The notes below the pieces were generated by a model, which did no database searches, was not told where the DNA came from, and saw only the letters and a list, made by a program, of their open reading frames with translations. From an uncultured Pseudomonadota bacterium (GTDB taxonomy: Bacteria > Desulfobacterota > Binatia > Binatales > Binataceae), in the NCBI GenBank assembly GCA_937889395.1, contig CALAOW010000116.1, positions 1 through 33,885 of the forward strand: a stretch of 33,885 nt of DNA, given 5' to 3'. Shown here one piece after another: positions 21,474 through 33,712 of this stretch. The position numbers and the translations under genes were made by a program. Every line of letters starts with the position of its first letter. Position 1 is the stretch's first letter.

Positions 21474-22202
21474 ATGCCAAGGTTCAAGCGCGCCGATATA
21501 TCGATATACTACGAGGAGTACGGCACAGGGTATCCGATTCTGCTATTTGCGCCCGGCGGGATGCGCTCGAGTATCGAGTTCTGGGCCAACAGCCCGTTCG
21601 ATCCAACCAAAGAATTCGCGGCTGACTTCCGCGTGATCGCGATGGACCAGCGCAACGCAGGCAAGTCGGCCGGGCCGATCAGCGCTGATGATGGGTGGGA
21701 CACTTACACGGGCGATCATATTGCGCTGCTCGATCATCTTGGGATCAAGCAATGCCACGTGATGGGCGGGTGCATCGGATCGTCGTACTGCCTGGGAATG
21801 ATCAAAACTGCGCCGCTACGGGTCAGCGCCGCGATTCTGCAAAATCCAATCGGACTCAGCCAGCGCAATCGCGAGATGTTCTTCGCGATGTTCGACGGAT
21901 GGGCGCAGGCGCTGAAGGTGCAGCGTCCAAAGCTTGACGACTGGGCGCTGCGGCAGTTCCGCGACCGGATGTATGGCGGCGATTTCGTGTTCAACGTTTC
22001 GCGCGAATTTGTGCGCTCGTGCAAAACGCCGATGCTGATTCTTTGCGGCAACGACGACTATCATCCGGCGGAAACCTCGAAGGAAATCGCCGCGCTCGCA
22101 CCGAACTCCCAACTTATCGACAACTGGAAGACGCCCGACGTGATTGGCGCGACCGTGAAGCGCGTGCGGGAATTCCTGATCTCGCACACGCCGAAGAGTT
22201 AA
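21474..22202 (+). CDS. Alpha/beta-hydrolase fold protein with Cys nucleophile position
   Basis: The 242-residue product has the alpha/beta-hydrolase order: oxyanion segment APGGMRS (26-32), VIAMDQRNAGKS (54-65), a nucleophile elbow MGGCIGSSY (97-105) and an acid-loop segment ILCGNDDYHP (189-198). The elbow carries C100 instead of Ser. The usual catalytic His near the C-terminus is not obvious: after D194/D195 only H197 and H238 occur, and neither is in the normal loop. It may be a Cys-dependent hydrolase (as in dienelactone hydrolase), or inactive. AAGGAG precedes the ATG. Its TAA overlaps the TAA of the convergent recD gene (TTAA). Confidence 0.85.
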   Translation: MPRFKRADISIYYEEYGTGYPILLFAPGGMRSSIEFWANSPFDPTKEFAADFRVIAMDQRNAGKSAGPISADDGWDTYTGDHIALLDHLGIKQCHVMGGCIGSSYCLGMIKTAPLRVSAAILQNPIGLSQRNREMFFAMFDGWAQALKVQRPKLDDWALRQFRDRMYGGDFVFNVSREFVRSCKTPMLILCGNDDYHPAETSKEIAALAPNSQLIDNWKTPDVIGATVKRVREFLISHTPKS

Positions 22203-24250
22203 CCGGCGAGCGCCAGTTTGATCCGATCGGCGAGTCCGGAGAATCGCTCGACGCGAGAGGCAATTGCATGGTTGAGCGTCGATTCGTCGCCGACGATGAC
22301 GACCGAGGTTCTGCTGCGGCTGACGGCGGTGTAGATGAGCTCGCGGGTCAGAACCGCGACGGGTTTCTCGGGAAGAACGATGGCGATCGAATCGAACTCG
22401 GAGCCCTGCGCCTTGTGCACCGTCATCGCGTAGCTGAGCTCGACGAATTCGCGCAGTGCCTCCAATCGGAATGCGACGAAGTTGTCGCCGCGCGGAAATA
22501 TCGCCATCGGGACTTGCGAGCCGTTGCGGCGTCGGACCCACAGTCTGATTCCATTGTCGCCGTTGAAGAGTCCGCGTTCGTAGTCGTTGCGCAGCACGAT
22601 CAGCGGCTCACCAACCACGAATGGGGCGCGCTCTGCCGCGACGCCCGCGGATTCGGCGGCGCGCGAATGAAGGCGCGCGTTTATTCGCTCGGCGCCGGTT
22701 TCGAAAACGCGCGTCACGCACAAGATGCGTGATTTTCCGGCGTGCGTGAACAGGTATCGCAATCGCTCGCAGTCGGCGTCATCGAAACGGCCATCGCGTT
22801 CGACGTATTCATGCGCAACCAATTCTTCCATTTCCGCCGCGCCGCGCACTCGATCGGTGTACCAGCGATCCAGAAACGGGCCGAGTTCGCGCGACCCAGT
22901 TGCAATAAATTCGACGCCGGCGAACGTGAGTTCGTCCGGTGATGAGCGCCGCGCCACCATCGGAATATTCGATTCGTCGATTGAATTCAGGAGCTTGGCA
23001 TCGCCGTCGTTAATCGACCGGGCCGCGAGCAGAATGGATCGGCCGGCGCTGCTTTCGCTGTTCATTCGATGATTCACTTCGAGCCGCATCGATGCCGTGG
23101 TGAGCGGACCGCTATCGTCCCCGGCAGACGGGACGAGATCGCGGAACACGGAACCCGCGGCGACCGACGGCAATTGGTTCGCATCGCCGAGCAGGATCAG
23201 CCGCGCTCCGGGCTGAATCGCGTTCGTCAGTCGTTCCATCAAGGTGAGGTCGAGCATCGAACCTTCGTCGACGATCACAACCTTCGCGGAGAGCGGGTTG
23301 TTGCGATGATGGCGGAAGCGCCCGGAATCGGGCGAGTAACCGAGCATGCGATGAATCGTCGCGGGCTCGAGATGCGCGTCGAGGAGCGCCTGGTCCACAC
23401 TGTCGAGCCGTTCTATTCGCGTCAGCGACTCGCCGATGCACTCGCCCATCCGATAGGCGGCTTTTCCCGTCGGGGCCGCCAGGGCAATCTGGGAGGGATC
23501 GACGCCGAGCCGCACCATCAGACGCATGATCGCGACGATAATCGAAGTCTTGCCGGTGCCCGGACCACCTGAAACAACTGTTAATCCCATGCGCGCCGAA
23601 GCGGCAACGACGTTGCACTGCTCATCAGACATCACAATCTGTTTGCCCTGCACAATGACGGGGCGAGCAATCACACCCTGAAGCGCGCTACTGAGTTTCT
23701 CCGCGTCCGCTTGCGCTTGCGTATCCATAGTCAATAGCGCGGCAAGTCGAATAGCCAGTTCACCCTCGTAGTGATAAATGCGGTGATGAACTATATAAGG
23801 CGCGATATATAATAAGGGTTTGTATTCATCCTCCCGCCGACCGACTACCGCTGATGCGCGGCCGGATTGTATAAGGGCTTCGATCGAAGTGGCGATCGTA
23901 GCGATGGCGTCGGCGCCAAAGCCATTGGCACACAGCGAACCGAGCGCGCGGTGCATCGGCGCTTGCGAAAGCGGACCAGTCACCGGAAAGCGGGTGCTCC
24001 CGTCCTGGAGGGCGACGAGCGAGATCAGGATGAGCACGATGAGTGCTATTCGGTCATCGTCTTTCAGAGCCGGTTCAAGCGCCGCGAGCTCGGCCGCCAA
24101 GTGGACAGACTCAGGCGCAAGATTAAGCCCGGACACCGAGACTTCGAGCGCGCGCATGCGAGCGTTGAATGCGGAACGGCCACCGTCACGGGCTGAATCA
24201 AAGCGTCGCCACGCGGTATCCATTCCGAGTAATGAGTATTTCTCTTTCAC
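22199..24250 (-). CDS. recD: RecBCD alpha subunit, 5'-3' helicase
   Basis: The 683-residue product is a superfamily 1 helicase with Walker A GGPGTGKT (228-235), Walker B-type segment VVIVDEGSMLD, helicase motif LILLGDANQLPSV and the late motif YAMTVHKAQGSEFDS. Together with recB and recC it forms the exonuclease V complex, RecD being the faster 5'-3' motor and the regulator of nuclease activity. The start is GTG at 24250; its GTGA overlaps the RecB TGA, typical of translational coupling. The N-terminal 200 residues, like other RecD proteins, are less conserved. The stop overlaps the stop of the hydrolase gene on the other strand. Confidence 0.93.
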   Translation of the reverse strand: MKEKYSLLGMDTAWRRFDSARDGGRSAFNARMRALEVSVSGLNLAPESVHLAAELAALEPALKDDDRIALIVLILISLVALQDGSTRFPVTGPLSQAPMHRALGSLCANGFGADAIATIATSIEALIQSGRASAVVGRREDEYKPLLYIAPYIVHHRIYHYEGELAIRLAALLTMDTQAQADAEKLSSALQGVIARPVIVQGKQIVMSDEQCNVVAASARMGLTVVSGGPGTGKTSIIVAIMRLMVRLGVDPSQIALAAPTGKAAYRMGECIGESLTRIERLDSVDQALLDAHLEPATIHRMLGYSPDSGRFRHHRNNPLSAKVVIVDEGSMLDLTLMERLTNAIQPGARLILLGDANQLPSVAAGSVFRDLVPSAGDDSGPLTTASMRLEVNHRMNSESSAGRSILLAARSINDGDAKLLNSIDESNIPMVARRSSPDELTFAGVEFIATGSRELGPFLDRWYTDRVRGAAEMEELVAHEYVERDGRFDDADCERLRYLFTHAGKSRILCVTRVFETGAERINARLHSRAAESAGVAAERAPFVVGEPLIVLRNDYERGLFNGDNGIRLWVRRRNGSQVPMAIFPRGDNFVAFRLEALREFVELSYAMTVHKAQGSEFDSIAIVLPEKPVAVLTRELIYTAVSRSRTSVVIVGDESTLNHAIASRVERFSGLADRIKLALAG

Positions 24251-27200
24251 GCGCGGAGCTCGGAGTCGGGTTCGCGAGTCAATAGATCGGATTCATAAGT
24301 GACTATTTCATTCCACGACGGTCTTGCGAAGTAAAATCCAGCTTTCCCGTCACCGGCCTGCGAGACGCCACGAAGAAAGACGTACAAAAGACCGCCAAAC
24401 CTCGACTCGTAGTCGTGCTCGGTGTGGATATCGAGCAGGCGCACGATACCGACCGAGTAAATTTGCGCCTGCAAACGATAGTGGCGTTCGACGTGCCGTG
24501 CGACTGCGGCAGGCTCATACGATGGCAGAAGATCTCCCTTCCAATCGGCGAAGTATATTAGCTGGTCGCGCCGGAATACCAAGTCGATAAAACCCTTTAT
24601 GTAGCCCCGTCCGACGATCCACGCGCCGTCCGGGGCGTCGCCGAGCAACGAGTGATGTTTCTCGGGAATTGGATAGGCGAATTCCATTTCGGGAACTCCG
24701 GGCAGCCGGTACAGTGCGCTCTCGAGTATTGTTTCGCCCAGCGCGACCGGCGAGGTGAGCGCGTTGAAAACCATCTCGCGTCCGCGGGCCAGCCATCGCG
24801 GATCATTCACGCCGTGGCGGCGCATGGCGCTCGCGAACAACTCGCGCACGTCGTCCCGCGCCATCCAGGATTCCAGATCCGGCGCATCGCCAAAGGATTT
24901 GAAATCGAGCTTCTCGATCGCCTCATGCAGGAAAATTCCGACGTGGCGGCCGCCGGGCAAATCGAGGTTGTCGGCACGCGCATCGATCGCATCGACGCTG
25001 GTTTTGAATTCGTCGGGATCGAAGCCGGTGGCCATCCCGGTTTCGCGCGCCGTCTGAAGCGAGGTGTAAGATTCGATCATCAAGCCGCGATGCCGTACGC
25101 CCAGCTCGGCGAATTCGCGGTCAAGGCCGGCGGTCTGTGACGCCGATGCGAGCCAGTCGCACAAGGCATTCTCGTCAAGCGCCGTTTCGTCGTCCTCTTT
25201 TTCAGTTTGTGAATCGATGGATGCCGGAGCGACTACAGTTTCCGTCGTGAAGAGCGTCTCCAATCGAGCTTCGCGATCGAGGGCGCGCAGTCGATCGTTC
25301 AGTTGCGCGTAGGCGCCCGACAAGTCTCGATTCAGCGCTCCATCCGGGACGTAGGGCAGTATCAGCCGGGCGCGCGCGCGAGTCAGCGCGACGTAGAGCA
25401 ATCGCTGATCCTCCTCGTCCTGCTCTTTCTTGAGCGCGGTCTTTTCCACGTCCCGCGCCGGTTTGCCAATCGCAAGACGCCGTTGGTTTCCGTCGTGGTA
25501 GACGCTGACCCAATCGCGCCGGTTGTTTGCGAAAAATCCTCCGTAGAGAGCTACGACGCCGGCTTCGAGCCCCTTGCTTTTGTGGATCGTCATGATTTGC
25601 ACGGCGGCGCGATCGTCTTGGGAGCGTTGCACATCCGGATCGCGATCGTCGCCCGCCGGCGCCGCTCGCCCCGTGATGTAGGCGTCGAGAAGTTCGATTA
25701 TTTCCGCGAGCGAGATTCCATGGCGCGATGCATCCTGAGTCAGAATCTCGAAGATGTGTTCGTAGTTGGTGAGTTCGCGGCGATCGTCCGACAACAGCAA
25801 TTCACGTTCGACCAGTCCGCTTTGATGGAGCAAGGCGTCGAACAAGCCGGCGAAACGCCCCGCCTCGGCAAGTGCGCGCCATTCGAACAGCCTTCCGAGC
25901 ATCGGATGCGCCTCGTCGTCAAGCCGCGCAAGGTCTCCGTATTCAACCGCGAAAAAAGGCGACGCCCACGCCTTGAGACGGTTCGAGCGGCGGCCGGGTT
26001 CGTCAATTCCTCTGAGCAGGTCGAGAATGTCGGCGGCCTCGCGGGTCTGGAACAGCCCGTCCTGCTTGTAAAAGGCAAACGGGACTCCCGCCTGACGCAG
26101 GTACCTGGCAATTTCCGCGCTGTCGCGGTTGGTCCGAGTCAGGACGTAAACGTCCCTGGCTGTAATCTTGTACGGCGCCTGCTTGTCATCACAAATTTCA
26201 ATCGCGTGATCCGGGTCCGCAATAATTCGCCGTATCGCTTGCGCGATTCGCGGACCTATCGCTTCGCGCATCGGCCGCGAAAACTTGTATCGATCGTCAC
26301 GCGGCTGGAACTTCATGAGCGTCACGGGTGCGATCGGCCGGCTGTTCGCCGCGACGGCTCGCAGAGCTGGACGCCCGCATTTTACCGGATGGTTGTAGGC
26401 GATCTCACCGGTGAACAATGGCGCCGCAGCATTCTGATCGAACATCAGGTTGCACGCCTCGATCATGTCGGCGGTCGAGCGGAAATTTTCGCGCAAGTGA
26501 ACAACCGCCGCTCCTGATTTGGAGAGTTGCTCGCGCGCTTCCAGGTAAGCGTGCACGTCGGCGCCACGAAACCCGTAGATCGCCTGCTTGGGATCCCCGA
26601 TTACGAAGACGGTGTTGCCGGCGCCGCCTTCGACGAACACCTGTCGAAAGATTTTCCACTGAAGTTCGTCCGTATCCTGGAATTCGTCGATCAGCGTCAC
26701 CCGATAGCGCTCGCGTAGGGTCGCCGCGAGCGATTTGCCGCGAGGACCGTCGAGTGCGTCTGCAAGCCACGCCAGCATGTCCTCGTAGTCCAGCGTCCCG
26801 CGCTCGCGTTTTCGCGCGTCCATTCGCGCAGCGATAGCGAGCAGCAGTTCGTCCACCACGCGTTGCTCGATAGTCAGCGCGGCCTGAACCCGCTCCCCCG
26901 CGTCGACGATCGCACGCACGCGGCCGGGCATCTCGCCTGGGAAAATAGGCCGCGTTTCGGCTCGCGTGCGGCGTGCACGTTTTGGATCACAGATGGGATC
27001 GAGATCGAAACCGGACAAGACTTCGGCCAGGATCGCGGCCGATCCATCGGCACGATTGACGAGCAGCTCGAGTTCACGCGTCGCGGCGATCGCGTCGCGC
27101 CGGGCATCATCTGTGACCGCCGCGAGCCGGAAGGCGTCCACCAAGGCGCCGGCATCGAACGCGCTGGCCAGATCGGTCAACGCCTGTTGATTGAGTTCGC

Positions 27201-27819
27201 GCCCCGCGGTCCGCAAGTAGCGTTGAGAGTGAGCATCCCAGAGCAGTTCCTCGAGGTCATCTAAAGTGCGGGTCTCATCCGAGAGCCACTCGCTGATGAG
27301 CCGCGCGACGCGATCGTCGGACTTCAGCCGCTCGCGCAATTCGGCGCGGATGGCCTCGTGGAACTCGAGACGGCCGCTGGTGAGGTCAATTCCAAAACGC
27401 ACTCCGCTATCAAAAGCGAGTTCGGTCAGCATCCGGCGGCAAAAGCTGTGAATCGTGTGGATGGGCGAATGATGAAACGAAAACAACGCGGTCGTCAGTC
27501 TTTCGCGCTCGTCGTCGCCCAACCGCTTGCGCTGCGATGGGTGCGCGGCGTCCGCACTATGGCCGGACAGGACGGCTTCGATTGTCGTACGGATTCGCGA
27601 GCGCAGTTCGGCCGTCGCCTTTTCGGTAAACGTCACGACCAGAATTTGATCGAGCAAAGCCGCGCCGGTGAGGACAAGGTCAACGACGATATGCTCGATC
27701 GTAAACGTCTTGCCGGTGCCGGCGGACGCGTCGATAACCTTGTGTCCGCCGTCGAGAATTTCATCGAGGATCGCGGGCCGATAGTAATCAATCTTTGCCG
27801 GGGCTGGAGTCGCGCTCAT
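24247..27819 (-). CDS. recB: RecBCD beta subunit, helicase-nuclease
   Basis: The 1190-residue product is a UvrD-like helicase with Walker A ASAGTGKT (31-38), the DEFQDT Walker B, and helicase motif VFVIGDPKQAIYGFRGAD. It ends in a RecB-family nuclease domain: HVGIFLHEAIEKLDF, GFIDLVF (D1079), and DWK (D1092, K1094), which line up with E. coli D1067, D1080 and K1082 at the same spacing, plus a QxxxY helix. The nuclease therefore looks intact. The ATG overlaps the RecC stop (ATGA), and its own stop overlaps recD. The unit order recC-recB-recD and the overlaps indicate one mRNA. Confidence 0.95.
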   Translation of the reverse strand: MSATPAPAKIDYYRPAILDEILDGGHKVIDASAGTGKTFTIEHIVVDLVLTGAALLDQILVVTFTEKATAELRSRIRTTIEAVLSGHSADAAHPSQRKRLGDDERERLTTALFSFHHSPIHTIHSFCRRMLTELAFDSGVRFGIDLTSGRLEFHEAIRAELRERLKSDDRVARLISEWLSDETRTLDDLEELLWDAHSQRYLRTAGRELNQQALTDLASAFDAGALVDAFRLAAVTDDARRDAIAATRELELLVNRADGSAAILAEVLSGFDLDPICDPKRARRTRAETRPIFPGEMPGRVRAIVDAGERVQAALTIEQRVVDELLLAIAARMDARKRERGTLDYEDMLAWLADALDGPRGKSLAATLRERYRVTLIDEFQDTDELQWKIFRQVFVEGGAGNTVFVIGDPKQAIYGFRGADVHAYLEAREQLSKSGAAVVHLRENFRSTADMIEACNLMFDQNAAAPLFTGEIAYNHPVKCGRPALRAVAANSRPIAPVTLMKFQPRDDRYKFSRPMREAIGPRIAQAIRRIIADPDHAIEICDDKQAPYKITARDVYVLTRTNRDSAEIARYLRQAGVPFAFYKQDGLFQTREAADILDLLRGIDEPGRRSNRLKAWASPFFAVEYGDLARLDDEAHPMLGRLFEWRALAEAGRFAGLFDALLHQSGLVERELLLSDDRRELTNYEHIFEILTQDASRHGISLAEIIELLDAYITGRAAPAGDDRDPDVQRSQDDRAAVQIMTIHKSKGLEAGVVALYGGFFANNRRDWVSVYHDGNQRRLAIGKPARDVEKTALKKEQDEEDQRLLYVALTRARARLILPYVPDGALNRDLSGAYAQLNDRLRALDREARLETLFTTETVVAPASIDSQTEKEDDETALDENALCDWLASASQTAGLDREFAELGVRHRGLMIESYTSLQTARETGMATGFDPDEFKTSVDAIDARADNLDLPGGRHVGIFLHEAIEKLDFKSFGDAPDLESWMARDDVRELFASAMRRHGVNDPRWLARGREMVFNALTSPVALGETILESALYRLPGVPEMEFAYPIPEKHHSLLGDAPDGAWIVGRGYIKGFIDLVFRRDQLIYFADWKGDLLPSYEPAAVARHVERHYRLQAQIYSVGIVRLLDIHTEHDYESRFGGLLYVFLRGVSQAGDGKAGFYFARPSWNEIVTYESDLLTREPDSELRA

Positions 27820-30800
27820 TTGAATATCCCGATTATCGGCTGGAAGCGTCGCGCGACGATTTTCGCGATCTCTTCTTCGTCCGGCGGATCGAAACCGGCG
27901 GCGTTTCGCAGCGGTCCGTATTCGGAACTGCTCTTCGAGAAATCATCCAAGCGGATGCGCTCGACAGCTTCGACCAAGTCGCGACGATTCGGGGGCTTGT
28001 GCAATTCCTCGACGACTTTTTCAACCGCCTCGATCGGCAGAAAGTAGTCATTGCCCGTCGAAAGCAGATCGCCGACGACGATGGACAAGAAGGCGAGCGC
28101 CGAGTCGCGGTCCATCGGGGGGAACTCGCGAATAAATTCGCTCTGTTTCGCTGACTGTGTTCCGATCACGATTGCGCGAAATCTCTCGGGCAGTTTTGCT
28201 CCGGTGGCGGCAAGGACAATTGCGTTCAGAAACGCCGGGAGAAAATCTTTCGGCTTGACCTTCTTATGAAGCACGCAGTTGATCGCAGCTCCCGACTCCG
28301 GGGACACAGTCCGAAGCGTGCCGTAGAGATTCACGCGCTGCGTCACTGTCGTTGCGTCGCGGCGGCGGACGTTGGCGTTCAGCGCGATTGGGGCAAGAAT
28401 CTCGCCGGCGCCGGCGAATTCGTCGGCGCGCCCGATCCGGATGTCCTTCCATCCGTCGAAATTGGTCACTCCCGCTTGAGAAGCCTGCGCGATCCATCGA
28501 CGAAGCGCCGCAGCGTCAGCCGTTGCAGCGATCTCCGCAAACTGCCCGGCGGGTGCGCGCCCATTGGCCTGCGCAATCCGAACCTGGCGCGCGTACTCTT
28601 CGTCGAGCGCCTCGGGCTTGGCGCCGGCGCGCCAGAAGACGTCGCGCAGCATCACGGTACGATCGAGCCGCGACCACAGGACCGGCTCGTCTTGCGCCTG
28701 CTCAGGCGCATCTTCGTCCTCGAGCATTCCGAGCGAATAACGCGCGGCGCCCTGCAAAGGACATTCGAGATATTTTCGAAGCGCGGCTATCGGAAGCGCG
28801 AACTCTTCGATCGGCGCGTGGCGTGGCGCGGCGGGCGCTGTTTCGAATTCGGCGAATTGCAAATCCTCTTGCAGGCGCTCGCGCAACTTCGCACCGAGAC
28901 GATCCAGCAAGCGCTCACGCTTCGGCTTTGCTCGATGCGTCGCAGCGGCATCGATCTTTTGCCGGAGCGCGAGCATCCGTGCGCCGCGGCGCGCGTCAGG
29001 ATCGAAGCTCGCGAATTCATGATCGCTGTTCGGAGTTGCGCGATCGGCGAATTCAGGAAAATATTTCAAATCATAACGGCTGACCGGATGTTTCACCGTC
29101 AGCTTCGCGAGCGTGTTCTTATCGATGAAACCCCGCAGCATGTATTGCAGTTCGCGAATGACGGACGAGGGTTCGAGGGCGTCGCCAGTTTTCGCATCGC
29201 GAGCAATGTAGGAGAAAAAAATCCGCTCGCGCGCGGCCAGGATCGTCTCGAGGAATAGATAACGGTCGCGCTCGGCCGGAGTGACATCGCCCGCGCCGCG
29301 TTTGAGCATCCGCAAATCAAGCGGGTCGCGACGTTCGCGCTCAGGAAAGGCAGCTTCGTTCAGCCCCAGCGCAAAGATGACTTTGAATGGGATCGACCGC
29401 AGCGAGGAAAGCGATCCAACCGCAACACCGCGCCCCGAAAATTGTCCGTGACGCGATTCGAGATCGGTGATTCGCGTTGCGATCATCTCGCGCGCCGATT
29501 CGTACGACATCGGACCAATGTTCAGTTCCGAGTCGCCGATGGACTCGATCGCCTCGAGGAAACTGTCCCTGACCCGTTCATCGAGCGCGCTCGCCGGGCG
29601 GAGGTATGCGTTCAAAAATTCGATGAGCATCCGCGACCAACGGCGCGGCGTGAGCCGCGCATTGCGCATCGAAAGCGCGTCGGCGATGAGCGAGCGTGCC
29701 CCGCGCATGAATCGCGCGGCAGTCTCGAGTTGATCCTGCGCCACTTCAAAGGGCAGGTAGCCGGGAGCTGTTGCTCCGGTCTCATAGAATGCGGGAATCC
29801 CGCTGCGCTGACCGGTCATCATGGCGCCCAGCGCGAGGCGTTTGATCGCCTGATCCCAGTGATAGAGGCCGCGCGGAATGTAGGTATCCTTCAGGTCGTC
29901 GTCGTCGGCGCCGAAGAAAATGCCCAGCGCCTCGCTCCATCGAGGCCACAGGCCGGCGTCGATTCGGGTTTCGCTTTCGCTGTTCAACGCGGGATGCGTC
30001 AGCAGCCGGATCATTTCCGCGCGCGAAAAGCGGCCGCGCGGCAGATTGAGAAGCAACTCGACGGCCTCGGCGACGCGGCTTGGGCCAGCGATGCTGCGGC
30101 CGACGAGATCGATTGGGATTCGGTGCTGCTTTCGGAAAACGCTCTCGATGTGCGCCATGTAGTCGTCAACCGCCGGGTCAGGAATCAGCACCGCGATTTC
30201 GTGAAACCGAATGCGCTCGGCGCCGCCGCTGGCGGCAAGTTTCTCGTTGTCGCGAACGATCGACCAGATCTCGTTCGCGACGATTTCGGCCTCGCGTCGA
30301 ATTCCCGGGGTGGCAAGAAACCGGATTCGCGCTTCGAACGGCTTGCCGTTGCCATCCTCGACGTCCGGGGGCTGCGGTTCGCGATCGAGGATGTTTTGCT
30401 GAAGAGCTTGGAGCAGCGTCGGTGGTTCGCGAGAAACCGGATCGGAAAAGAGCGGCGCGAAATCGCATTGAGACAGTTCGTTGAGCAGCCGAACGTATTC
30501 ACGGCCCGGCCGCCCCCAGAGCCTCAGAGCAGGCGGGTCGGACGATTCATTCAACGCGAACGGGTCTTCGGAATCTGCGAGTTTTTCTCCGACTTTGTCT
30601 TGACGATGAGCCCATGCGGTGAGCGCGCCGCGACGGGAACTGTCCACATCGTCCCAAAACTCGCGGCACGGATTGAGCGCGTAGATCCGAATATCGCCGA
30701 GCGCGCCGAGTTTCGCGAAAATCTCCGCATAAGCATTTCCCGCGTACGAGGAACCGAACACGTGAAGCGTCGCCGGCAGGGCAGATTTGAGGTGGTGGCT

Positions 30801-31424
30801 GTCGCCCGCCTCGAATGCATCGGGCAGCATCATCAATTGAGTCTCGCGCTTTAACAGCCATTGCTCGCGCACGCGGCCGTGCGAATCGAATACCGACTGC
30901 CACAAATGGCGCTGCCATCGCTCAGTCTCGCTCATTGCATCAACGTCAGATCGGCGGGCAGCGCGCCATTTCTCGATCATGCGCCGCCGCGAAATCGAAT
31001 ACTCGCGAAACAGCCGCGCCAACTGTGCGGCAAGCAGGATCGTTCTGAGCTCGACGTCGGCGTCAGTTTTGGATCCCGCCTGGATGTAGTCGCGCGCCGG
31101 CGTCAAGTTGGAGTCGTCGCGATGGCTCGAACTTCTAAGGCACTCGAACAGGATCAGTTGGAGCTCATCGGCGTCGAGGATCTTCAGGCGCGCATCCGTG
31201 GATTGGAGAAGTTTGGCTAAATATGTCCGCAGGAACGGAAAGTTCAGATTCGCCGCGACGCCGATCGATTCGGCCAGCCGATAGCGGACGAATTGTTCGA
31301 CGATGCGGTTGGGCACGACAATCGAGACCGGCTCGAGCGGCTCGCGCCTCTGATGCGCGGCAACCGCGTTGGCCAGCGGCGCGATCAGATTTTCGAGGCG
31401 ATTGGAATAGTAAAGACGAATCAT
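27816..31424 (-). CDS. recC: RecBCD gamma subunit (Chi recognition)
   Basis: The 1202-residue product starts MIRLYYSNRLENLIAPLA and has RecC features: an inactive helicase-like N-terminal part (IVVPNRIVEQFVRYRLAE, GVAANLNFPFLRTYLA), VFGSSYAGNAYAEIFA, the stretch FKVIFALGLNEAAFPERERRDPLD, and a long C-terminal nuclease-like inactive domain. In E. coli, RecC forms the tunnel that scans 3' strands for Chi. The Chi sequence of this organism cannot be read from the protein. There is no visible Shine-Dalgarno site before the ATG at 31424. It is first in the recCBD transcript, and its promoter must lie in the 119 bp shared with the divergent regulator. Confidence 0.93.
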   Translation of the reverse strand: MIRLYYSNRLENLIAPLANAVAAHQRREPLEPVSIVVPNRIVEQFVRYRLAESIGVAANLNFPFLRTYLAKLLQSTDARLKILDADELQLILFECLRSSSHRDDSNLTPARDYIQAGSKTDADVELRTILLAAQLARLFREYSISRRRMIEKWRAARRSDVDAMSETERWQRHLWQSVFDSHGRVREQWLLKRETQLMMLPDAFEAGDSHHLKSALPATLHVFGSSYAGNAYAEIFAKLGALGDIRIYALNPCREFWDDVDSSRRGALTAWAHRQDKVGEKLADSEDPFALNESSDPPALRLWGRPGREYVRLLNELSQCDFAPLFSDPVSREPPTLLQALQQNILDREPQPPDVEDGNGKPFEARIRFLATPGIRREAEIVANEIWSIVRDNEKLAASGGAERIRFHEIAVLIPDPAVDDYMAHIESVFRKQHRIPIDLVGRSIAGPSRVAEAVELLLNLPRGRFSRAEMIRLLTHPALNSESETRIDAGLWPRWSEALGIFFGADDDDLKDTYIPRGLYHWDQAIKRLALGAMMTGQRSGIPAFYETGATAPGYLPFEVAQDQLETAARFMRGARSLIADALSMRNARLTPRRWSRMLIEFLNAYLRPASALDERVRDSFLEAIESIGDSELNIGPMSYESAREMIATRITDLESRHGQFSGRGVAVGSLSSLRSIPFKVIFALGLNEAAFPERERRDPLDLRMLKRGAGDVTPAERDRYLFLETILAARERIFFSYIARDAKTGDALEPSSVIRELQYMLRGFIDKNTLAKLTVKHPVSRYDLKYFPEFADRATPNSDHEFASFDPDARRGARMLALRQKIDAAATHRAKPKRERLLDRLGAKLRERLQEDLQFAEFETAPAAPRHAPIEEFALPIAALRKYLECPLQGAARYSLGMLEDEDAPEQAQDEPVLWSRLDRTVMLRDVFWRAGAKPEALDEEYARQVRIAQANGRAPAGQFAEIAATADAAALRRWIAQASQAGVTNFDGWKDIRIGRADEFAGAGEILAPIALNANVRRRDATTVTQRVNLYGTLRTVSPESGAAINCVLHKKVKPKDFLPAFLNAIVLAATGAKLPERFRAIVIGTQSAKQSEFIREFPPMDRDSALAFLSIVVGDLLSTGNDYFLPIEAVEKVVEELHKPPNRRDLVEAVERIRLDDFSKSSSEYGPLRNAAGFDPPDEEEIAKIVARRFQPIIGIFK

Positions 31425-31477
31425 CGCGGCACAACTATGGATCGCGGATCAGGTTTTAGGAACATATATTGTCGTGC

Positions 31478-31492
31478 TGACAACCGTTGTCA
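31478..31492. promoter_or_regulatory. Perfect 15-bp palindrome, possible operator for recC and WYL gene
   Basis: TGACAAC-C-GTTGTCA (7-base arms, one-base centre) lies between the divergent recC (start 31424) and WYL regulator (start 31544) genes. Its centre is about 60 bases from each start, and a TTGTC half-site lies nearby at 31470-31474. That position suits a dimeric regulator acting on both promoters. The WYL protein next door is the obvious candidate, but WYL-family sites vary and this is inference. Confidence 0.5.
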
Positions 31493-31543
31493 TCGAATAA
31501 CGGGGATGATTGAATCAGCAAACTGTCGGAGCAGAGGCGATTC

Positions 31544-32572
31544 ATGAAGAAACTTCGCCGCAAACCCACCTACGGCGCCGCGATTCGGCTGGCACGAATC
31601 GCCGCCGGGTTGTTCTCGAAACCATACGGCTGGAGTTTCAGGGCGATCGAGGAAAGTCTGGACATTTCCGAGCGCACACTTGCCCGTTACGTGTCGGTGC
31701 TGCGCAGCGATCTGCTCGACTGGCGTGGCGATCCGCTGGTTGAAGTTGCCGGCACGGGCGGCGAGCGCAAACTTCGGCTGGTCAGTTCGATGAAAGCCGC
31801 GGAAGCATCTTCGTACCAGGTCGCGCTGCTGTATTTCTCGCTGACCGTGCTCAAGTTCCTGGAGGGCACGGTGCTGGAAGAAGGCGTTGAAGGGTTGTGG
31901 GAGAAGATTTATCAGAACCTGAGCCTTACGCAGCAGACGCGGCTGTCCGACCTCGAGCGCAAGTTTTACGCCGTCCCTTACGCGCCCAAGGACTACGGTG
32001 AGTTCAGCGAACAACTCGACGTAATTTTGCGAGCGCTGCTGGATCAGATTCGGCTCAAAGTCGATTACGCCGGTCTGACCGGCGAGGGCCGGCAACACGA
32101 CTTCGATCCATACTCGCTGATCGCCTACCGCGGCGGTCTCTACATTCTCGGCTACAGCCATCGAAGCAGCGCAATCATTTATCTCGCGGTGGAGCGAATC
32201 CGCTCGGTGGAATTCATCCATCAACCCGATGGAACCTCGACGCGGTTCATCTATCCGCGCGGCTTCGATCCGGCGGCGCACACCGAAGGGACTTTCGGAA
32301 TCGTCGAAGGCCCCGAGACCAGGGTCGAACTGAAGATTCATAGCGAACAAACCGAAGCGTACGTCCGTTCGCGCACAATTCATCGCAGCCAGCGTTTCTC
32401 GCATCGCCGCGACGGTACGACCATCATGACGATGACGGTCAGGGGTACGACGGAGTTGGCGAACTGGATAATGAGCATGGGGCCGTGGATCGAGGTGCTC
32501 AAGCCCGCCGCTCTGCGCAAGGAAATCGCGCAGCGCCATGCTGGAGCAGCGCGTCTTTACCGCGCCAGTTAG
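31544..32572 (+). CDS. WYL-domain transcriptional regulator
   Basis: The 342-residue product has an N-terminal winged helix-turn-helix (FRAIEESLDISERTLARYVSVLRSDL, about 31-56), a middle helical part, and a WYL domain at about 160-230 (RLKVDYAG, then DFDPYSLIAYRGGLYILGYSH, then YLAVERIRSVEFI). It ends with a WCX-like domain (VELKIHSEQTEAYVRSR...). WYL regulators often sense single-stranded DNA or nucleotides and control DNA-damage or phage-defence genes (for example PafBC, DriD). AGAGG is 7 bases before the ATG. It is divergent from recC, so control of recCBD is an attractive hypothesis. Confidence 0.88.
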   Translation: MKKLRRKPTYGAAIRLARIAAGLFSKPYGWSFRAIEESLDISERTLARYVSVLRSDLLDWRGDPLVEVAGTGGERKLRLVSSMKAAEASSYQVALLYFSLTVLKFLEGTVLEEGVEGLWEKIYQNLSLTQQTRLSDLERKFYAVPYAPKDYGEFSEQLDVILRALLDQIRLKVDYAGLTGEGRQHDFDPYSLIAYRGGLYILGYSHRSSAIIYLAVERIRSVEFIHQPDGTSTRFIYPRGFDPAAHTEGTFGIVEGPETRVELKIHSEQTEAYVRSRTIHRSQRFSHRRDGTTIMTMTVRGTTELANWIMSMGPWIEVLKPAALRKEIAQRHAGAARLYRAS

Positions 32573-33559: not shown

Positions 33560-33589
33560 CCAGGGGTGATCCCTGCACTCAGTATTAAG
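33559..33589. repeat. Middle copy of the terminal repeat core
   Basis: This stretch differs from 20-50 and 33653-33683 at only a few positions (for example GTGATCCCT for GTGACCCCT, ACTCAGTATT for ACCCAGTGTT). It starts on the last base of the hldD stop codon. Confidence 0.8.
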
Positions 33590-33636
33590 GCGGCCCGCCG
33601 TTGGCGGGCGCGGCCCTTGCCAACGGCTTAATACTG
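33580..33636. repeat. Inverted repeat joining two repeat copies
   Basis: CAGTATTAAG (33580-33589) is the exact reverse complement of CTTAATACTG (33627-33636). Inside it GCCGTTGGC pairs with GCCAACGGC. The result is a long, G+C-rich hairpin with one unpaired side strand, sited after hldD. It could also act as a transcription stop, but no T tract follows. It resembles miniature-element or IS-end structures. Confidence 0.75.
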
Positions 33637-33712
33637 CGCTGCCGTCGCCACGGCCAGGGGTGACCCCTGCACCCAGTGTTAAGACAAAGATGCGGGACTT
33701 TGTCCCTGTTAG
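33634..33712. repeat. Right-end copy of the dispersed repeat unit
   Basis: The first 51 bases equal bases 1-51 of the window. After a one-base insertion the match continues with differences to about 33712. The tail includes ACAAAG and CTTTGT arms around ATGCGGGA. It is followed within about 50 bases by the transposase remnant. Between this copy and the transposase frame (33713-33745) I see no gene. Confidence 0.85.

Follow-up and report, generated by a model that had tools for sequence, protein, structure and literature searches.

A predicted palindromic operator connects a WYL-domain regulator to recCBD and to other repair and defence genes in Candidatus Binatota

Does the WYL-domain regulator encoded beside the recCBD genes of a Binatus-like bacterium (Candidatus Binatota) control those genes, and through which DNA element? 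The window, that is, the whole stretch of 33,885 nucleotides analyzed in this study, comes from a genome of 2.75 Mb that is 91% complete (G000). On its minus strand, recC (exonuclease V gamma; 27816–31424, ATG at 31424), recB (24247–27819), and recD (22199–24250; NCBIfam TIGR01447, score over the cut-off) are joined by 4-bp overlaps at recC/recB and recB/recD in an operon-like arrangement, with recC as the first gene of the putative target operon. The regulator gene (31544–32572, plus strand, 342 aa, ATG at 31544) diverges from recC across an intergenic gap of 119 bp (31425–31543) and has an epimerase gene on its 3′ side. Its product was the sole WYL match in this 91%-complete genome.

A sequence-only reading of this DNA had pointed to a perfect 15-bp palindrome about 60 bp from both start codons, and we confirmed its presence. 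The palindrome, TGACAAC-C-GTTGTCA (TGACAACCGTTGTCA; 31478–31492, assigned to neither strand), has 7-bp arms around one central base and lies in the middle of the gap. Counted from its center at 31485, recC begins 61 bp away on one side and the WYL gene 59 bp away on the other. Palindromes with 7-bp arms and a spacer of 0–3 bp arise in 2.3% of shuffles of the gap; therefore, the palindrome alone is only mildly unlikely and constitutes weak evidence. It is conservation, rather than the shuffle odds, that makes it real.

Sites were located by pattern searches, for example with the looser family consensus GACARCSGYTGTC. Most of 30 WYL homologs have a version of the palindrome upstream of their genes with this core, down to approximately 50% protein identity, across families and beside unrelated neighbors, and the palindrome is conserved across the class. 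Of 116 related genomes, 10 contain the perfect 15-mer, each of these ten encodes a WYL homolog, and a reversed control pattern gave matches in one genome of the 116. Within the family, sites matching the looser consensus number 5.8 per genome in the 23 genomes with the regulator versus 0.33 in the 18 without it (Mann-Whitney p = 1.8e-6). The same pattern holds inside genus g7, where four species with the regulator have 13–17 sites and three species without it have 0–1. Three genomes of the same family (G007, G010, and G018) have a WYL homolog and zero sites, and thus the WYL gene alone is no predictor of sites. A sizeable share of the sites, many of them from genus g7, lies inside predicted genes. 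The window's genome contains only one further perfect copy of the palindrome. It has only three exact consensus matches in all, which, together with the loss of an operator described below, suggests that the regulon of this species may be small. We consider that the palindrome is probably the operator of this WYL family.

The divergent arrangement of recC and the WYL gene recurs throughout the genus (seven of seven genomes) and in two members of another genus, G016 and G029, and the linked recC genes have the palindrome site in all genus members. In G006 and G002, one arm of the palindrome has decayed and the recC-proximal TTGTCA arm is intact. Unlinked recC genes also have the operator, 97 bp upstream in G023 (same family) and 31 bp upstream in G045 (another family). 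In genomes with recC and without the WYL gene, no good palindrome match was found upstream of recC. The two features behind the earlier suggestion of a RecBCD–WYL switch, the palindrome and the gene linkage, are thus conserved in relatives, the palindrome at linked and unlinked recC genes alike. Because unlinked recC genes keep the site and genomes without the regulator do not have it, a regulatory link from the WYL protein to RecBCD is well backed by the comparison, and recCBD is very probably a target of the regulator.

The strongest result is the promoter geometry. Read on the minus strand from 31483 to 31461, the recC promoter is TTGTCAGCA-CGACAATA-TATGTT, in which the −26-type element TTGTCAGCA (31475–31483, minus strand) is formed by the recC-proximal palindrome arm and the predicted −10 element of recCBD, TATGTT (31461–31466, minus strand), lies 12 bp past TTGTC. 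The promoter motif of PafBC is tTGTCRgtg-8 nt-TannnT, i.e., TTGTC-N12-TANNNT (PMC5656591), and the distance from TTGTC to the −10 element is 12 bp in both. The 11/12-bp spacing was first noticed at recC and then tested over all other sites, and the offset is enriched regulon-wide: TANNNT occurs 11 or 12 bp past GTTGTC at 59 of 238 site-sides (3.6 expected), and at only a few per offset elsewhere. After removal of similar sequences, the non-redundant set retained 31 of 152 site-sides with this spacing (2.3 expected), whereas 1000 shuffles gave a maximum of 7. Without the recC–WYL gaps of the genus, the count was 30 of 150. Toward the WYL gene, the window's operator has no −10 element at the regulon spacing; since it is present on the recC side only, the activated direction would be toward recC. 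The sequence-only reading had also considered the flanking sequence suggestive of a PafBC-type motif. That sequence, TTGTCGTG, is indeed present at 31469–31476, but it is not conserved, its counterparts being TTGTCTTT in G005 and TTGTGGTG in G001, and we rejected it as the PafBC motif because close relatives differ there; the PafBC-like element is instead the palindrome arm, in the form TTGTCAGCA-N8-TATGTT.

The regulator consists of a winged helix-turn-helix (wHTH), a three-helix region, a WYL domain (157–223), and a WCX domain (258–335). Both WYL (PF13280) and WCX (PF25583) score above the Pfam cut-off, and the helix-turn-helix is present in a single-chain structural model (mean pLDDT 75, pTM 0.53); with these domains, the protein can be assigned to the wHTH-WYL-WCX transcription factors. 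Profile and Foldseek searches both placed DriD first and PafBC next, DriD being the best full-length match (1e-14 by sequence, 1e-16 by fold), and the Foldseek relatives also include BrxR and CapW. In the homolog alignment, R44 and R48 in the recognition helix (approximately 43–56) are invariant, and they correspond to the arginines with which PafB reads DNA (PMC6789036). The WYL loop is different. Among 20 homologs, the position of I212 is never arginine and A215 is invariant, whereas DriD has R-S-W-R there. Judging from the DriD alignment, these would be the loop positions of R211 and R214, which PafB requires for ssDNA binding (PMC11804915). The proposal that the regulator senses ssDNA made by RecBCD is therefore unsupported so far, the R-x-x-R pair of the β4/β5 loop being replaced in 20 of 20 homologs. 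The missing pair makes it likely that the regulator uses another ligand or another binding mode.

The genes downstream of sites were clustered and then annotated by Pfam. On inspection, the annotations appear to center on DNA repair and defence, with several seemingly unrelated targets among them. AddB-like proteins of two kinds are represented, a label that rests on a weak UvrD_C match and on our reading of the sequence and should be taken as provisional. Most regulator-bearing genomes have the operator at the addB-like gene; in G026 and G037, which have no regulator, it is absent. It is kept in G001, G002, G003, G004, and G005 and lost in the window's genome, where the region upstream of position 6720 on contig C70 (L258) has a GC-rich sequence in its place. 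That sequence resembles a repeat at 33560–33680 of the window, which comprises short repeats in direct and inverted orientation that read CCAGGGGTGA(C/T)CCCTGCAC and TTAATACTGCGCTGCCGTCG and is possibly a dispersed element. Operators also precede genes for Cas3 (G003 and G004), RmuC (G002 and G045), UvrB (G002), DnaB (G005), and a DnaQ-GIY-YIG nuclease (G004).

Several genes of less obvious function were observed behind operators. A gene for a dual-specificity phosphatase–ADP-ribosylglycohydrolase fusion is located directly behind the operator in G009 and G023 (L224:350-1912 and L219:1997-3595), and the phosphatase alone is in this position in G030. A gene pair (L032:1614-3007) encodes a 109-aa protein without a recognizable family and, after it, a DUF6745 protein; in the window's genome the pair is placed behind the sole other perfect operator, and it is also found behind a site in G006. 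A gene for a zinc-ribbon protein of 70–89 aa (L050:1556-1825; CxxC...CxC...CPxC, no Pfam match) is repeatedly downstream of the operator, also in G002, G003, G004, G023, and G038; in G004, and apparently in G003, it is between the operator and recC. This small protein is a candidate for a new repair or defence factor. Other sites were set aside. The operator near Cas10/Csm1 in G045 is a weak case with no −10 element at offset 11–12; the cas3 sites of G012 and G038 are within the cas3 gene, and only those of G003 and G004 were counted as cas3 promoters; the site at TatD in G005 overlaps the first codons and is likely a coding coincidence; and the CaiB-type CoA-transferase cluster and several clusters of genus g7 have a variable distance, belong to a large paralogous family, or have an intragenic site. 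The site at dnaB in the window's genome, GACAACCGTTGGC, is degenerate and only suggestive.

We propose a DriD/PafBC-like role for the WYL protein, which would activate recCBD as well as other repair and defence genes via the palindromic operator, and we consider this reading likely. The observations are that the operator is conserved, co-occurs with the regulator, and keeps a fixed spacing to the −10 element; from these we infer operator binding, activation, a dimeric state, and a DNA-damage-type signal. The protein would bind TGACAACNGTTGTCA as a homodimer, and the recC-facing arm would provide TTGTC at about −29 to −25 in place of the normal −35 element, 12 bp before TANNNT. The regulator might then recruit or re-aim the housekeeping RNA polymerase, as in the sigma adaptation by PafBC. 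The operator before the WYL gene itself would allow autoregulation. In relatives, the operator possibly also drives the genes for AddB-like nucleases, RmuC, UvrB, DnaB, Cas3, the zinc-ribbon protein, and the phosphatase–ADP-ribosylglycohydrolase, and the whole would form a DNA-repair and defence regulon alongside LexA.

The fixed spacing also bears on an opposite reading, in which the protein would be a BrxR/CapW-like repressor that covers the region just upstream of the −10 element and is released by a ligand upon phage attack or damage. BrxR and CapW are relatives by Foldseek, the operator would cover a −35 region too, and in family f6 it is located just downstream of the WYL gene's own TATAGT −10 element, suggesting autorepression. 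However, a repressor needs no fixed distance to the −10 element, and the strong preference for 11–12 bp is the geometry of an activator promoter; the nearest structures, DriD and PafBC, are activators. We regard repression as unlikely. It is far less probable still that the palindrome only autoregulates the WYL gene and that its adjacency to recCBD is accidental. The operator does precede WYL genes apart from recC, as in G009, but the unlinked recC genes of G023 and G045 have the site while genomes without the regulator do not, and the −10 element at the regulon spacing faces recC rather than the WYL gene. Equally slight is the chance that the palindrome is the target of a different regulator whose distribution is identical: the co-occurrence of regulator and site is a correlation, but the site precedes the WYL gene itself across families, sites disappear together with the WYL gene inside one genus, and R44 and R48 match their counterparts in PafB.

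LexA is separately present, being found in 112 of the 116 related genomes, and on the activator reading the WYL regulon would thus be parallel to the SOS response. More tentatively, we suggest as a possibility that Binatota have a second, LexA-independent genome-defence regulon, in which a WYL activator without the ssDNA-binding arginines responds to another signal and raises the levels of end-processing RecBCD/AddB-type nucleases, Cas3, the zinc-ribbon protein, and the DUF6745 protein. Among the papers searched for WYL proteins with recBCD, AddAB, or Binatota, none described this regulon. The new elements are the occurrence of such a regulon in Binatota, the combination of a palindrome with PafBC-type promoter architecture, RecBCD and AddB-like proteins as targets, and the absence of the sensor arginines. 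The data make a connection between a WYL activator and RecBCD/AddB-type nucleases open to testing, and the shared operator points to new candidates among repair or defence genes.

Among known WYL regulators, PafBC, the mycobacterial DNA-damage activator of RecA-NDp promoters, shares with the Binatota system the wHTH-WYL-WCX protein, TTGTC at −26 instead of −35 with TANNNT 12 bp on, and, on the reading proposed here, a DNA-repair regulon parallel to LexA; in a pafBC mutant, the level of RecB falls (PMC5656591). PafBC, a heterodimer or a fusion protein, recognizes a non-palindromic motif, adjoins the Pup-proteasome genes, and has the R-x-x-R sensor pair. The Binatota system instead has a single WYL gene, whose product is without the pair, and a palindrome that is perfect at recC, with both arms kept at other sites. 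DriD of Caulobacter, a homodimeric WYL activator that responds to ssDNA, is LexA-independent, as the Binatota regulator would be, and its sites are also at a fixed distance from the −10 element (PMC12340889). Its operator, ATACGAC-N7-GTCGTAT, differs from TGACAAC-N-GTTGTCA of Binatota, and its known targets are didA, bapE, recJ, and dnaG, with no RecBCD. SiwR of M. smegmatis is a homodimeric WYL activator with a palindrome in the −26 region and a gene adjoining its target (PMC10693628); however, that palindrome is 19 bp long and imperfect with GGA at −26, the targets are DinB/YfiT-like genes, and SiwR, an ssDNA sensor, needs R204/R207. BrxR and CapW are also WYL-family regulators that adjoin defence or nuclease genes, but they are found in BREX or CBASS loci, whereas the genes here are core repair genes with an activator-type promoter geometry. 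Promoters of PafBC-type geometry are known from actinobacteria, and the same spacing is now seen in an unrelated uncultured phylum. Its combination there with a palindromic site and just one WYL protein suggests that activation from −26 is old or has arisen repeatedly.
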